This document shows, piece by piece, positions 12,977 to 25,634 of a DNA stretch of 36,406 nucleotides. This DNA is from a virus. Each line of letters opens with the position of its first letter. The stretch's first letter is position 1. The notes under the pieces are model-generated. The model saw nothing but the letters and a program-made list of their open reading frames with translations. It had not been told where the DNA came from and did no database searches. The position numbers and the translations under genes are program-made. Location: positions 1 through 36,406 of the IMG/VR virus record IMGVR_UViG_3300034375_010508; one strand, written 5' to 3'.

Positions 12977-13900
12977 ATGACTCCCATCAATCAAAACGCT
13001 GGTGGGGAAGTCATGCCAGAGGATGTATTCAGGGCTTTCATAGCAGGCAAGCCGGCGAACACTCAAAGAGCTTACAGGCAGCATCTTGCCAAGATTGCAG
13101 CATTTTTGGATATAGAATTTGAATCAAAAGAATATTTTGAAGCTTTGATTCAGTTTTCGCCTGCAAGGGCTATGCTGTACTTTGACTGGCTCTGTAATCA
13201 AGGCTTAAAGGGCCAGACGGTTAATCAGTACATCAGAACAGCGAGGCAATTCTTTGAATATCTTCGAGATGTCGGGCTAATTGATAGAAACCCCATAGGC
13301 AAGCATTTAAAAGCCTCAAAAGAGCCAGTATCTCAAGCAAAGCTTATATCTGACAGGCTTGTGCATCAGATGCTAGATCTTCCAGGCCGAGATGAAAAGG
13401 GGCTTTCTCAAAGGGCTATGCTTGCGCTGCTCTTCTATTCAGGGCTTAGAATCTCTGAAATCGTTCGCCTGAAATGGTCTCAGGTCAATTGGTCTGACTC
13501 GTATCTTGAGGGCGTAATCACAAAAGGAAGTAAAAAGAGGGATGTTCTACTGCATCAAATCCCGTTTAAGGCGCTTAAAAGGCTCTCTAAGAAGAGATTT
13601 CAAGTAGCCTATACTGGGAGTCATTTCATATTCAAATCAACGTACAGCGGAAAGCACGTTAGCTACAAGACAGCATATAGGTTTATTAAGAGAGTCTTTT
13701 CTGAAGTTGGGCTTGAGGATGGGTATTCTCCTCATTCTGGCAGGGCCACAGCTATTACAAATCTTTTGGATCAGGGCTTCTCTCACAGGGAGGTAATGGC
13801 TTTCTCTGGGCATGAATCTGTGCAGATGGTGGAGAGATACGACCGAAAAAGAAAAACTCTTGAATCTCCAGCAGCCTCTCTTGCGTATAATAAAAAATAA
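12977..13900 (+). CDS. Tyrosine recombinase / integrase
   Basis: A 307-aa XerC/D-type enzyme. The N-terminal half is a SAM-like core-binding domain (NTQRAYRQHLAKIAAFLD; PARAMLYFDWL). The catalytic domain has Arg158 (SGLRISEIVRLKW), the His253-x-x-Arg256 motif (HSGRATAITN), His279 (SGHES) and the nucleophile Tyr288 (ERYDRKRK), with family-typical spacing. It could integrate the phage into the host chromosome or resolve multimers. ATG 12977 follows AGGAGA by 9 bases. The presence of a regulator at 11005 favours integrase. No classical attP is evident directly beside it; see the tRNA fragment at 19110. Confidence 0.92.
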   Translation: MTPINQNAGGEVMPEDVFRAFIAGKPANTQRAYRQHLAKIAAFLDIEFESKEYFEALIQFSPARAMLYFDWLCNQGLKGQTVNQYIRTARQFFEYLRDVGLIDRNPIGKHLKASKEPVSQAKLISDRLVHQMLDLPGRDEKGLSQRAMLALLFYSGLRISEIVRLKWSQVNWSDSYLEGVITKGSKKRDVLLHQIPFKALKRLSKKRFQVAYTGSHFIFKSTYSGKHVSYKTAYRFIKRVFSEVGLEDGYSPHSGRATAITNLLDQGFSHREVMAFSGHESVQMVERYDRKRKTLESPAASLAYNKK

Positions 13901-19700: not shown

Positions 19701-20570
19701 ATGATTAAGGGCTTTAATATCTCCACATGGCATCATCCAGGCACAGCAAAAGCATGGATAAAAGAAGCATCCCAGATGGGTGCAAACACAATAAGATATC
19801 AGATCACACCTTCAAATCTTCTTGTCTTACAGCACAGGCAAAGCTATCTCGATTTCATAAATGAAAGCATTGATGACCTTTTAGAAATCATAAACTACTC
19901 AGAAGCAAACAGAATCCCTGTTAAATATATAATTGATCTCCATGCTCCATTTAGAGGCTTAAACGAAAAAGGCCAGCACTATTGCCTCACAGACCGAGAA
20001 ACTAGAAAGCTCTGGAGAGAGGATCTAAGGCTCTTAGCTGACGTATTTGAGCCCTTTGACTCAGTAAAGGCTTTAGAGTTCATAAATGAGCCCCACACCT
20101 TCTCCAATAAAAGATGGGCAAGGCAAGCAAAAGTGGAGGTATCAAGAATCCGCAAATACTGGAAAAAGCAAATAGTTGTTCCCTGCCACAACATAGGCCC
20201 AAAAGAGATTGAGGACTTAGAGCCACTGAGACGCAAAAAGATTCTTTACACTGCCCACATGTACTCACCTTTTGAGATAACTCATGCAGGAATATACAAA
20301 CCAATAGACCTTCCCTTCCCAGCTCTTAAGCTAAAGAAAAGACTCTCAGAGCTTCTTGCCTGGAAGCAAAAGCACAGAAAGCCCCTCTTTGTTGGAGAGT
20401 TTGGATGCGTGGATCTGGCAGGGGCAGACATGCAGAGACGCTATATCTCAAGATGCGCTAAAATCTTTAACAGGAACAGAATAGGATGGTGCCTTTATCC
20501 CTGGAAGGATAGGCACATATGGAATTATGAAAGCTCTGGAGTTATCAAAGAAATCAAAAAGTATTTCTAG
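19701..20570 (+). CDS. Glycoside hydrolase family 5-like enzyme
   Basis: A 289-aa (beta/alpha)8 enzyme with GH5 landmarks in order. These are the strand-2 Arg (MGANTIRYQITP), strand-3 IIDLHAPFRG, the acid/base Glu130 in LEFINEPH, the H-x-Y motif at His186/Tyr188 (AHMYSP) and the nucleophile Glu233 in LFVGEFGC. GH5 enzymes cleave beta-linked glycans by a retaining mechanism. The substrate cannot be told from sequence. There is no signal peptide or virion-attachment region, so it would act inside the cell or after lysis. It has its own promoter-like element and lies in the accessory region, away from the tail genes. Confidence 0.85.
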   Translation: MIKGFNISTWHHPGTAKAWIKEASQMGANTIRYQITPSNLLVLQHRQSYLDFINESIDDLLEIINYSEANRIPVKYIIDLHAPFRGLNEKGQHYCLTDRETRKLWREDLRLLADVFEPFDSVKALEFINEPHTFSNKRWARQAKVEVSRIRKYWKKQIVVPCHNIGPKEIEDLEPLRRKKILYTAHMYSPFEITHAGIYKPIDLPFPALKLKKRLSELLAWKQKHRKPLFVGEFGCVDLAGADMQRRYISRCAKIFNRNRIGWCLYPWKDRHIWNYESSGVIKEIKKYF

Positions 20571-21514: not shown

Positions 21515-22708
21515 ATGGAAGTATTTCAGCAAGATATATCAAAGCTAAAGCCCTATGAGTTCAATAATAGATCTCATCCAGAGGAACAAGTTGAGAGGAT
21601 AGCTCACTCAATAAAAGAGTTTGGATTCAATCAGCCTTTAGTGGTGGATGTTCAAGATAATATCATTGTGGGGCATGGAAGATTCCTGGCAGCAAAAAAG
21701 CTCGGGCTCTCTCACGTTCCTTGCTTGATGATTGATGAGCTCACAGATGAGCAGATAAGAGCCTACAGAATTATTGATAATAAACTCCAGAATGATAGCT
21801 CATGGCTGCTCAACAATCTTGAGCTTGAACTTGGATGGCTTGAGGATAATGACTTTGATTTAGAGAAATACGGCCTCGATGACTTACAGGATCTCTTTCC
21901 TGAAGATGAGCCAGAAGTTGAAGAGGATGATTTTGAAGCTCAGGAAGATGAGAGTGAGCCATATATCAAGCTTGGAGATATGATTGAGCTTGGTAGGCAT
22001 CGGGTGTTGTGTGGTGATAGCTGCACAGATTGGTTTGAAGATATTGAGCCTGTTTTGATGGTAACAGATCCGCCTTATGGTGTTGAGTATTCAGCAGATT
22101 GGCGTGATGAGCTTCTGAATGAATCTAATAGAAGCATCGGAAAAGTTTCAAATGATGAGCGAGTAGATTGGACTGAGGTTTATAAAGCTGTAAATGCTCA
22201 AGTTGCCTATGTCTGGCATGACGGGCGAAACGCAGCAGAACTTTCAAAGAATTTACAAGATTCAGGCTATGAACTTGTGTCACAGATAATATGGGCCAAG
22301 CCTATGTTTGCCATAAGTCGAGGTGACTACCATTGGCAGCATGAGCCTTGTTGGTATGCTGTCAAGAAAGGCAAGAATCATAACTGGCAAGGCAGCAGGA
22401 GCGAATCAACTCTTTGGAAGATAGAAAGAGGCTGTAAAGACAAAACAGGCCACAGCACAGAAAAGCCTTTAGAGTGCATGGCAAAGCCAATAAAGAACAA
22501 CACAAAGCAGGGCGATATAGTTGCAGATCCATTTCTCGGCTCAGGCACAACACTGATAGCCTGTGAGCAGCTAAACCGAACATGCTACGGAATAGAATTA
22601 GAGCCTAAATACTGTCAAGTCATAATCGAGAGATACAAGAAGCACTGTGAGGATAAGAAAAAGCCTTTTGAGTGCAAAATAAATGGTGAGGCTTTCGATG
22701 GCGCATAA
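21515..22708 (+). CDS. ParB-domain DNA methyltransferase (beta class)
   Basis: A 397-aa fusion. Residues 1-100 are a ParB/sulfiredoxin-like nuclease domain (LKPYEFNNRSHPEEQVERIA; VGHGRFLAAKKLG). After an acidic linker comes a methyltransferase with motif IV (VTDPPYGVEYS) before motif I (VADPFLGSGTTLIACEQ), the order of beta-class adenine-N6 or cytosine-N4 enzymes. It would methylate phage DNA, for example to evade restriction or mark DNA for packaging. The site is unknown; GATC is worth testing because the iterons contain it. The ATG follows GGCTATAAAAAA with no ribosome site. It overlaps the small terminase region. Confidence 0.88.
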   Translation: MEVFQQDISKLKPYEFNNRSHPEEQVERIAHSIKEFGFNQPLVVDVQDNIIVGHGRFLAAKKLGLSHVPCLMIDELTDEQIRAYRIIDNKLQNDSSWLLNNLELELGWLEDNDFDLEKYGLDDLQDLFPEDEPEVEEDDFEAQEDESEPYIKLGDMIELGRHRVLCGDSCTDWFEDIEPVLMVTDPPYGVEYSADWRDELLNESNRSIGKVSNDERVDWTEVYKAVNAQVAYVWHDGRNAAELSKNLQDSGYELVSQIIWAKPMFAISRGDYHWQHEPCWYAVKKGKNHNWQGSRSESTLWKIERGCKDKTGHSTEKPLECMAKPIKNNTKQGDIVADPFLGSGTTLIACEQLNRTCYGIELEPKYCQVIIERYKKHCEDKKKPFECKINGEAFDGA

Positions 22709-23093: not shown

Positions 23094-23337
23094 AGCAATA
23101 GAACCTGAGACACAGGAAGAGGCTCATATTGACTATCAAGAACACCAGAGGCGACATGAAGAGCTTAAAAAGTTGCTGCTTGGCGTAAAGCGTGAAGAGC
23201 TGAGCAGGGAAATAATAAAGATGATTCTTGGGCTCTGTCTTGGGATAGCAGGCTTTTCTCTCTTGTTTGGTTTCGCTGATTGGAGGGTTGCTCTTGGTAT
23301 ATTCCTTGCCATTTGGGGCAATAATTACAGAGGATGA
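23083..23337 (+). CDS. 84-aa membrane protein between terminase genes
   Basis: ATG 23083 after AGAGGGAGAAGATA, overlapping the TerS stop. A charged N-terminal half (HIDYQEHQRRHEELKKLL, KREELSREII) is followed by two hydrophobic helices (MILGLCLGIAGFSLLFGF; WRVALGIFLAIWG). It ends overlapping the TerL start by ATGA. The topology could suit an i-spanin- or holin-like role, but the location within the packaging genes is unusual. Function unknown. Confidence 0.55.
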   Translation: MAHKAIEPETQEEAHIDYQEHQRRHEELKKLLLGVKREELSREIIKMILGLCLGIAGFSLLFGFADWRVALGIFLAIWGNNYRG

Positions 23338-25634
23338 GTCACATCTGGGCTCCACAGCCAGGGCCACAGCTTGCAGCAATAGAAGCCAAGTGGATAAATG
23401 AGCTTTTCTACGGTGGCGCTAGAGGTGGTGGCAAATCTGATTACCTCTTAGGCGATTATCTTCAAGATGTTTTTAAGTACAAAGAGAAGTGGCGTGGGCT
23501 TCTTGTTCGTCAATCCTACCCAGAGCTAGAAGAGCTAATTGCTCGCTCGCATGATCTTTATCCACCAACAGGGGCGGTCTGGGGAGAGCAAAAGAAAACC
23601 TGGACATGGCCTAATGGTGCTTTTATGCGGATGCGTTCAATAGAGAATGCAAGAGATGCTAAGAAATTGCAGGGGCATCAGTATTGCGTAGCAGTCGGCA
23701 CCCCCATATTAATGGCAGACGGCTCAGCAAAGGCTATCGAGGAAATAGTAGCAGGGGAGTATGTTCAGACCCTAGAAGGCGCTAAGCCAGTTATAGCTTC
23801 AATAGCTCCATATGAGGCTGAGTGTGTAAGGGTGAGCAATGCGAAGGGCGAGCAAATCAATCCTTTCTGGCATCCGATTTTAACCGTCGAGGGTTGGCAG
23901 TCGTACGCATCTCTTCTGGATAACGATTCCACAAAGTCTGAAGAGGGATTTCAAGAATGCGGCAAGCATCCTTCCTTGAGTGTTTCCGCAAGACTTTTAG
24001 AACGTGATCAGCAGTTGGGTATTGCCGATATTCGTGCCGCCAAGAAATCTTGTGATGCTTACAGCAGCTGTGGATTGTTTGATGAGAGCATTTCAATCGT
24101 CGAGAGGCTTCTTTCAAACTTATTTTGGGATTGCTTGCACATTTATAAACAAGCTGCACAAAATCATTATCATAAATCTTGGCCGACTCTCTTTGGTGTT
24201 TCACCATATGCTCTTGCTGGTTCTGTACCAGCTCAAGGTTCTCAATGTCATTATTCTGCTTATTGCCATCTCTATGATGCACAACTTCCTCTGGGAGTAA
24301 GAACCTACCAAGAGAAATCTCAAGGAAAAGGCGGTGCTGTAGCACCATCCCTCTTTTGTTACATGATGGATGCTCTGGGCAATATTCCATCAAATAGCCA
24401 TCAGATCGAAGAACAACATGAGTATCACCATCCTTATACCGGAGAGGTGAGGAGAGCGAGCGAGGGTAGTATTTACGACTCATTTGAAATGGCCCCTTGT
24501 GGCGTTAATCTAGTGGCGGACATACAGGTAAAAGATGCTAATCATTATATTACCGCAAATACAGGCATTGTAAACAAAAACTCATGGATTGGCTGGGATG
24601 AGCTACCTCAGTGGCCTGATGATAGAGCCTACAGGATGCTATTTGCCTGTAATCGTTCTGCAAAGGGAGTGCCAGAGAAGAGAATCAGAGCAAGTGGAAA
24701 CCCTGGAGGCGTGGGGCATCATTGGGTGAAAAACAGATTCATTGACGCAAATCCTTTAGGCTTTCAGATACAAAAAGAGCAGCTAAGAAACGGAATCTGG
24801 GAAAGGCTCTTTATTCCTGCAAAAGTCTGGGACAACAAGATACTGCTCAAAAACGATCCAGATTACATTCAAGCCCTGGAAATGGTTGGCTCTCCTGAGC
24901 TTGTCAGAGCATGGCTTGAAGGCGATTGGAACGTAATTACAGGGGCGTATTTCCCTGAGTTCTCAACAGATAGACATATTATCAAGCCCTTTGAGATTCC
25001 CCCTCACTGGTTCAGAGTGTTCTCTCATGACTGGGGCTCAGCTTCTCCATTTGCCTCTATCTGGGGCGCTGTATCAGATGGAGACTGCAACATACCAGCA
25101 GGGGCACTAGTCATATACAGAGAGCTCTATGGCGCATCAGGGCCAAATCAGGGGCTAAAGATGCAGAACAAAGACATTGCAGCCATGACTCTCTCAAAAG
25201 AGGCTAAGAATGAGAAAATATCTCTTCGAGTAGCTGATCCAGCATGCTTTCACCAGGATGGAGGCCCATCAATAGCTGAAGATTATAGAAAAGAGGGCTT
25301 AACAGTAAGAGCAGCAGACAATAAGCGAGTCCCTGGATGGCAGCAGATAAGGGGGAGGCTTATAGGGCAAGATGACAGGCCCATGATCTATTTCTTCGAC
25401 ACTTGCAAGGATTTAATCAGAACTTTACCAGCTCTCCAGCATGATGAGCGAAAGCCTGAAGATGTGGACACAGAGGGAGACGACCACTTAGCTGATGCGT
25501 TAAGATATATGGCGATGAGTCGGCCATATATGAGGCCAAAACCTGTTGAGGAAAAGCCAAGATACCTTAACAAGATGACCATCAATGAGCTTTGGGCAAA
25601 TAAGGGCAGCAGAAGAAAACCAGGCAGGATTTAG
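23334..25634 (+). CDS. terL: Large terminase subunit (TerL) interrupted by an in-frame intein
   Basis: A 766-aa precursor. Walker A GGARGGGKS is at 27-35. The Walker B strand reads IGWDELPQW with Asp422-Glu423. The nuclease domain shows FSHDWGSASPF, VADPACF and GDDHLADALRYMAMS. Residues 118-416 are an intein, so the spliced ATPase-nuclease is 467 aa, normal for the family. The extein junction is LQGHQY then SWIGWDE, immediately before Walker B, so splicing is needed for packaging. The protein cuts concatemeric DNA and pumps it into the prohead. ATG 23334 overlaps the preceding stop (ATGA), and the portal gene starts directly after the stop. Confidence 0.95.
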   Translation: MSHIWAPQPGPQLAAIEAKWINELFYGGARGGGKSDYLLGDYLQDVFKYKEKWRGLLVRQSYPELEELIARSHDLYPPTGAVWGEQKKTWTWPNGAFMRMRSIENARDAKKLQGHQYCVAVGTPILMADGSAKAIEEIVAGEYVQTLEGAKPVIASIAPYEAECVRVSNAKGEQINPFWHPILTVEGWQSYASLLDNDSTKSEEGFQECGKHPSLSVSARLLERDQQLGIADIRAAKKSCDAYSSCGLFDESISIVERLLSNLFWDCLHIYKQAAQNHYHKSWPTLFGVSPYALAGSVPAQGSQCHYSAYCHLYDAQLPLGVRTYQEKSQGKGGAVAPSLFCYMMDALGNIPSNSHQIEEQHEYHHPYTGEVRRASEGSIYDSFEMAPCGVNLVADIQVKDANHYITANTGIVNKNSWIGWDELPQWPDDRAYRMLFACNRSAKGVPEKRIRASGNPGGVGHHWVKNRFIDANPLGFQIQKEQLRNGIWERLFIPAKVWDNKILLKNDPDYIQALEMVGSPELVRAWLEGDWNVITGAYFPEFSTDRHIIKPFEIPPHWFRVFSHDWGSASPFASIWGAVSDGDCNIPAGALVIYRELYGASGPNQGLKMQNKDIAAMTLSKEAKNEKISLRVADPACFHQDGGPSIAEDYRKEGLTVRAADNKRVPGWQQIRGRLIGQDDRPMIYFFDTCKDLIRTLPALQHDERKPEDVDTEGDDHLADALRYMAMSRPYMRPKPVEEKPRYLNKMTINELWANKGSRRKPGRI
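23685..24581 (+). other. Intein in TerL (Hint splicing domain split by an antisense HEG)
   Basis: 299 residues, TerL 118-416. Block A begins CVAVGTPILMADGSAKAIEE with Cys118. Block B contains INPFWHPILTVEGW with His180. The C-terminal blocks read VADIQVKDANHYITANTG then IVNKN, and Ser417 is the +1 residue. The penultimate position is Lys rather than the usual His. Between the Hint halves the sense-strand peptide is rich in Cys, His, Tyr and Ser and looks unlike any LAGLIDADG or HNH endonuclease. The HNH endonuclease is encoded there on the other strand. Splicing is inferred from motifs and from the otherwise interrupted Walker B. Confidence 0.9.
23857..24483 (-). CDS. HNH homing endonuclease on the antisense strand of the intein
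   Basis: A 208-aa protein with ATG at 24483 and an AAGGGG site 9 bases before it. Residues about 22-95 form an HNH_3-type core: THVVLRSDGYLMEY, LQHRLFLEISLGRFLLPEEV, VVHHRDGNKQNNDIENLELV and QNQQEHMVKHQ. Two C-terminal HTH-like units (SLKEASRRLKCSHQTIHSCC; KDACRILEIPLQTLWN) would bind DNA. It lies wholly inside the intein, from the codon of TerL residue 175 to residue 384, leaving about 32 Hint residues at the C-side. The likely target is intein-less terL. Relative phase: codon position 1 faces codon position 1, so sense wobble bases face antisense second positions. Confidence 0.88.
   Translation of the reverse strand: MSRKYYPRSLSSPLRYKDGDTHVVLRSDGYLMEYCPEHPSCNKRGMVLQHRLFLEISLGRFLLPEEVVHHRDGNKQNNDIENLELVQNQQEHMVKHQRESAKIYDNDFVQLVYKCASNPKISLKEASRRLKCSHQTIHSCCKHHKISWRHEYRQYPTADHVLKVLRKHSRKDACRILEIPLQTLWNRYPEEMRTTANPRRLKSDARKD

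Follow-up and report, generated by a model that had tools for sequence, protein, structure and literature searches.

Can an intein keep its homing endonuclease on the DNA strand opposite to the one that encodes the intein itself? In canonical mobile inteins, such as PI-SceI, the endonuclease is encoded in frame within the intein polypeptide and usually belongs to the LAGLIDADG type. The window analysed here, a 36,406-nucleotide stretch of viral DNA corresponding to positions 1 to 36,406 of the IMG/VR record IMGVR_UViG_3300034375_010508, contains a gene of the terminase large subunit (TerL) that is interrupted by an intein, and the intein contains an HNH gene on its other strand. From sequence comparisons and structure predictions, the insertion is very probably a mobile class-1-like intein with a separate HNH homing endonuclease gene overprinted on the opposite strand of its inter-domain linker.

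Organization of the TerL gene and its intein

The TerL precursor is encoded on the plus strand at positions 23334..25634 by a 766-residue open reading frame interrupted by the intein. It matches terminase large subunit families of PHROG with E-values down to 1.4e-29, and tblastn matches were found in 628 phage records. The intein occupies positions 23685..24581 of the plus strand (897 bp, 299 residues, TerL residues 118–416). It begins with Cys1, ends with Asn299 and is followed by a serine at position +1 (CVAVGTPILMADG...DANHYITANTGIVNKN|S). The insertion point is immediately upstream of the TerL Walker B motif (SWIGWDE). An alignment of TerL genes with and without the intein, proposed in an earlier note on this DNA, includes an intein-free relative (L007, 53% identical) that aligns to both exteins. 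The boundaries of the intein are exact, because the exteins abut with zero gap in this relative.

The N-terminal half of the Hint domain (23685..23918, plus strand, intein residues 1–78) contains blocks A and B, and the codon of the block B histidine, TerL His180, is located at 23871-23873. The C-terminal half (24402..24581, plus strand, residues 240–299) contains a YxHPY motif, block F (NHYIT) and block G (VNKN|S). Both halves are conserved in the alignment of inteins. The linker between them (23925..24401, plus strand, residues 81–239) shows little conservation in the alignment, is predicted to be largely disordered and has no family match. The matches of the sense intein to Hom_end_hint and Vint are weak. 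The splicing motifs are mostly present, and the +1 residue is serine, threonine or cysteine in all relatives. Block B keeps its histidine and has proline in place of threonine; the penultimate histidine of block G is replaced by lysine in the window, and by arginine, cysteine, threonine or alanine in some relatives. Splicing may be slow or conditional, because of the proline in block B and the lysine at the penultimate position. The sense motif YxHPYTxExR (window 24402-24460) has invariant Y, H and Y and a nearly invariant R across 14 aligned inteins. It is positioned opposite a conserved motif of the HNH frame, RYKDG/YRGGYT; its conservation could come from either strand.

HNH gene on the opposite strand of the intein

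The intein polypeptide of the window does not include an endonuclease, unlike that of a canonical intein, and the HNH protein is encoded on the other strand. The predicted homing endonuclease gene is located at positions 23857..24483 of the minus strand (627 bp, 208 residues, ATG start), where it lies entirely within the intein and overlaps the codon of His180 at its 3' end. A Shine-Dalgarno-like AAGGGG (24493..24498, minus strand) precedes the ATG by 9 nt. The protein matches Pfam HNH_3 (E=5.6e-11) and HNH families of PHROG (down to E=1.8e-20). The HNH_3 catalytic core identified by the Pfam match (24208..24336, minus strand, protein residues 50–92) contains invariant residues H, H, N, N and H, and the catalytic HH...N...H residues are invariant among 15 aligned antisense HNH proteins. 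Two predicted HTH-like DNA-binding units (23935..24141, minus strand, residues about 115–146 and 161–183) are helical in the AlphaFold2 model; their Pfam matches are sub-threshold in the window protein and above threshold in the homologues from L072 and L084. The best match of the antisense protein among solved structures, both by profile (E=0.01, remote) and by fold, is the homing endonuclease I-HmuI (PDB 1u3e). In the overlap, the first position of each antisense codon is opposite the first position of a sense codon, and the second antisense position is opposite a sense wobble base. The earlier note, made from the letters alone, had described the 627-bp frame with its ATG and AAGGGG site, its containment in the 897-bp intein, the overlap with the His180 codon, the two HTH-like units and the phase of the overlap; our computations agree with it on each of these features and on all coordinates.

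A conserved arrangement in a family of uncultivated phages

The earlier note had also called for a search for inteins with antisense HNH frames. Relatives were sought in IMG/VR by an HNH profile search and by a DNA-pattern search independent of HNH, and 17 further lineages were found. The intein with an antisense HNH gene is a conserved arrangement of 18 lineages in a family of uncultivated phages (the window, L069, L070/L071, L072, L073, L074, L075, L078, L079, L080(=L042), L081(=L043), L082, L083, L084, L091, L097, L159 and L161). The pattern blind to HNH, which encodes K-N-[ST/C-type +1]-x-I-G-F-D-E, identified 12 contigs. Two of them were spurious, and the ten others were all TerL inteins with an antisense HNH, including two new lineages, which argues against ascertainment bias from the HNH-based search. 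When the sense N-terminal half of the intein was used as a query, it retrieved two further TerL inteins at this insertion site, both with an antisense HNH.

The insertion site is constant across the 18 lineages (Y/F/M|C...N|S/T/C, immediately before the Walker B sequence IGFDE), and the phase of the overlap, antisense position 1 against sense position 1, is identical at every locus for which it was computed. In all 18 lineages the insertion is open in frame and ends with asparagine followed by serine, threonine or cysteine, and it begins with cysteine wherever the contig includes its start. The TerL exteins are 22–70% identical among the 13 lineages in which they are complete; therefore, the family is not one virus sampled repeatedly. 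The three IMG/VR copies of the window element are identical over the intein. Three queries of a named phage collection returned no close member, and all members of the antisense type are metagenomic contigs. Scans of bacterial and archaeal genomes yielded no members, and plasmids yielded weak Hint matches only.

The intein of L074 (L074:2843-3802) has an atypical C-terminus, ...NHYITQFDSRQERSGITPGPVSAN|T, where the family has ...GLVNKN|S/T/C. The reverse-complement open reading frame 429-4322 of L070 encodes a TerL that apparently contains three inteins, one of which is the intein with the antisense HNH. The first is located at the Walker A loop, does not begin with cysteine and contains an in-frame endonuclease-like region; the third is near the C terminus of TerL.

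Possible joint transfer of intein and endonuclease

The HNH tree and the Hint tree have a common main split (support 98 and 96), with the exception of the position of L084, and identities between the HNH proteins are correlated with those between the Hint domains (Mantel rho 0.47, P=0.001, with shared ancestry ignored). The two parts have been inherited together. The TerL of L072 groups with those of L075 and L091 (99), in conflict with its HNH, which groups with those of the window and L070 (96). The tree pattern, calculated with a Hint set that includes some codons overlapping HNH, agrees with movement of the entire unit from one terL gene to another. The distribution of the unit is sporadic, as that of a homing endonuclease would be: intein-free terL relatives are common, and the trees conflict in L072. 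This is indirect evidence of homing.

In L086 and L087, the frame of TerL and its intein is open and the HNH catalytic centre is lost. The loss, by internal deletion, is found in the HNH-strand open reading frame 2887-3579 of L086 and in L087, and it apparently represents a decaying endonuclease. Such a state is as expected of a homing endonuclease that decays after fixation while splicing stays essential.

HNH proteins that aid terminases are known, and HNH genes commonly adjoin terL. The antisense HNH might accordingly be a functional packaging-associated nuclease similar to HK97 gp74, lodged by chance beside its partner TerL, and not a homing enzyme. In phages PAE1, CL2 and Shemara, relatives of the HNH group at a second TerL site, described below, are indeed freestanding genes next to terL. 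All close relatives of the antisense HNH that were found, however, sit inside the intein; the nearest structure is that of a homing endonuclease, and the HTH units are as in homing enzymes. Furthermore, many related phages lack this HNH, and that of L086 and L087 has lost its catalytic centre. We consider a packaging role improbable.

Selection on both strands

The coding constraint on the two strands was estimated from codon shuffles. When the codons of each HNH gene were shuffled synonymously, 4.5–15 stops were expected on average in the TerL frame. None was observed at any locus, and the probability of zero stops was <=0.0018 at each. The freestanding HNH genes of phages PAE1, CL2 and Shemara, used as controls, contain 6–8 stops in that phase, as their own shuffles predict. 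In the converse shuffle, with the sense protein fixed, 2.4–8.8 antisense stops were expected; the probability of zero was <=0.001 in 16 of the 17 loci and 0.05 in the truncated L082. Differences between HNH genes amount to 0.48, 0.39 and 0.64 at codon positions 1, 2 and 3 of the HNH frame, an order that is normal for a coding frame, and the most variable position lies opposite sense position 2. Among the 14 scored substitutions in the overlap between the closely related L070 and L071, 11 are silent in HNH and replace a residue in the sense protein, against 29% expected (binomial P=2e-4), and a single one is silent in the sense frame. Both strands are under coding constraint. The HNH sequence is conserved, and the sense strand over the linker is conserved for openness, not for sequence, because the shuffles, the invariant residues, the codon-position differences and the substitutions in L070/L071 all point this way. 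The view of the earlier note that the sense linker is a by-product of the antisense gene is supported by the codon-position variability, the classes of substitution in L070/L071 and the low AlphaFold2 confidence of the linker.

Long antisense open reading frames do occur by chance in coding DNA, and L086 and L087 have a gutted HNH with an intact sense frame. The antisense frame could therefore be taken for a relic or a chance product, with the sense linker as the product under selection. This reading is very improbable and already contradicted: the catalytic residues are invariant, the antisense frame is open beyond what the sense-synonymous shuffles allow in all loci except L082, and the linker is unconserved and predicted to be disordered, with almost no sense-silent changes in L070/L071. 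A chance antisense frame is ruled out by the homologues, the shuffle tests in both frames and the freestanding HNH controls. The earlier note had held that the frame would be due to chance if its product had no protein homologues, or if it were broken in relatives with a conserved sense frame. Homologues exist in the 17 further lineages, and both frames are intact in every other lineage except L086/L087.

Predicted structures of the two proteins

AlphaFold2 predicts the sense intein with confidence at residues 1–78 (pLDDT about 86–97) and 240–299 (pLDDT 80–96), and the segments 81–93 and 109–239 have pLDDT values below 50. In a Foldseek search, the intein model resembles structures of the Mtu RecA mini-intein and other inteins, with TM-scores normalized by target length of up to 0.74. 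The model of the antisense HNH has a mean pLDDT of 84, with disorder at residues 1–19 and a weakly predicted C-terminal tail. Its ordered part (residues about 20–195) lies opposite intein residues about 73–248. In these models, the fold of each protein opposes a disordered segment of the other, because the codons for which both strands encode ordered residues number only about 15.

It is exceedingly improbable that the insertion is not an intein but a group I intron, although antisense endonuclease genes are documented in such introns (PMC9548176): there is no Rfam match in the region of the window, and in five relatives Rfam finds a tRNA but no intron; the insertion is open in frame in 18 lineages with a Cys start where visible and an end of Asn plus Ser/Thr/Cys, and it is predicted to fold as a Hint domain.

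Candidate expression signals and proposed homing mechanism

Candidate expression signals of the antisense gene are found in the codons of the C-terminal splicing motifs. The ATG of the HNH gene is exactly 98 nt from the C-terminal end of the intein in seven loci (the window, L069, L070, L071, L072, L073 and L078). The Shine-Dalgarno-like signal before the ATG, summed over 16 loci, scores 73 against 57.5 +/- 4.7 under synonymous recoding (maximum 70 in 1,000), with shared ancestry ignored; in the window alone it is not significant against synonymous recoding. The antisense strand of the block F and G codons (HYI and VN) resembles a sigma70 promoter. In the window, a weak promoter-like site (24544..24574, minus strand) lies within these codons, with the -10 element TATAAT at 24544-24549 and the -35-like TTTACA at 24569-24574, at a spacing of 19. 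The corresponding sequence in L075 and L091 is TTGACA-16-TATAAT, with an extended -10. The promoter score of the 16 loci is 176 against 154.2 +/- 4.5 (maximum 168 in 2,000), again with shared ancestry ignored, and the scan of the window alone finds no more than chance. That codon choice in the splicing motifs favours an antisense promoter and Shine-Dalgarno site is a strong lead. It is a lead and not a demonstration, because shared ancestry is ignored and the window shows nothing remarkable in either test.

A mechanism can be proposed for the mobile intein with its overprinted endonuclease gene. The plus strand would be translated into the TerL precursor, in which an unstructured linker of about 160 residues joins the two Hint halves, and the Hint domain would then splice itself out and join the TerL exteins. 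The I-HmuI-like HNH protein would be made from the minus strand, with a promoter and ribosome-binding site probably hidden in the codons of the C-terminal splicing motifs. This protein would cleave terL genes that lack the intein, immediately ahead of the Walker B motif, and recombinational repair of the cut gene would copy in the whole unit.

Comparison with known systems

The window element shares with canonical mobile inteins the Hint domain, the position of the endonuclease between the two halves and the presumed homing. It differs from them in its in-frame linker, which lacks features, and in having the endonuclease as a separate protein encoded on the opposite strand. Split inteins ('fractured genes') have a free-standing endonuclease gene between the intein halves, and their host gene is broken in two. 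The endonuclease is likewise a separate polypeptide between intein halves here, but the host gene is one continuous frame that runs through the endonuclease gene. I-HmuI, to which the sequence similarity is remote, is the product of a sense-strand gene within a group I intron.

Mycobacteriophage TerL inteins are in-frame and located in the ATPase domain, and insertion in a conserved active-site motif is common to them and the window element (PMC5050341). ShiLan has a same-strand, out-of-frame HNH insertion in a phage methylase, without an intein (PMC11855218). In both cases HNH is overprinted on an insertion that is open in the host frame and whose host-frame product is largely disordered; the ShiLan HNH has the orientation of its host gene and is not accompanied by a splicing domain, whereas the window element is antisense and lies in a recognisable intein with a predicted Hint fold. 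Nuclear rDNA group I introns with antisense homing endonuclease genes include Didymium Dir.S956-2 and Dsq.L2066 (PMC9548176). There, too, the endonuclease gene of a self-splicing mobile element is opposite to the strand of the host gene. These elements, however, are ribozymes located in rRNA genes, where the sense strand need not code for protein, while both strands must do so in the window. The earlier note knew of no characterised example of the architecture, and no intein with an antisense endonuclease gene was found in the open-access literature, a scope largely outside subscription journals and preprints. The rDNA introns and the out-of-frame HNH of ShiLan qualify this statement. The parts are known, and we found no earlier report of their genetic arrangement in inteins.

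Overprinting at a second TerL site

Two contigs (L022:6440-7018 and L030:3908-4483) are empty at the first site and have an intein at a C-terminal site of TerL; there, an HNH_3 gene runs out of frame on the strand that encodes the intein. A profile search for this second site found about 28 more contigs (among L100-L137). Most of these HNH genes use the +2 frame, and two of the tested ones use +1. Taken over the set of 25 loci, the openness of the host frame is significant (summed log10 P0 about -28.6), but it is not so at each locus. HNH of this group is also located inside the annotated TerL of three named phages: Tetrasphaera phage TJE1, Acinetobacter phage Highwayman and Rhodobacteraceae phage LS06-2018-MD07. 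HNH overprinting on intein linkers is therefore not confined to one family. In the records of these three phages (L150:1020-3206, L151:888-3170 and L152:1125-3173, respectively), the out-of-frame HNH in the intein-like insert is unannotated. Salmonella phage Shemara has a freestanding HNH related to the second-site group beside terL, on the opposite strand (L149:2486-3076).

A broader proposal, for and against which we see the balance as even, is that inteins would have an unreported mode of carrying an endonuclease, overprinted in another frame of the linker, and that this mode would have arisen more than once, antisense at one TerL site and on the same strand, in two frames, at another. In the antisense type, the codons of the C-terminal splicing motifs would double as promoter and ribosome-binding site, and the endonuclease would therefore be expressed independently of the late terminase gene.

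The standard picture is altered in that the endonuclease of an intein need not be a domain of the intein polypeptide, and its expression could be uncoupled from that of the host gene. The family provides natural replicates of long overlapping genes in antisense orientation with selection on both strands, and it offers a clean test of how selection splits codon positions between two strands. Annotated intein 'linkers' should be re-read in all six frames, as should inteins classified as mini or endonuclease-free.

The genome of the window phage also encodes an integrase (12977-13900), a protein with a Glycosyl hydrolase family 5 (cellulase) domain (19701-20570, E=3.7e-23) and, just upstream of the terminase genes, a ParB_N domain fused to an N6/N4 DNA methylase (21515-22708).
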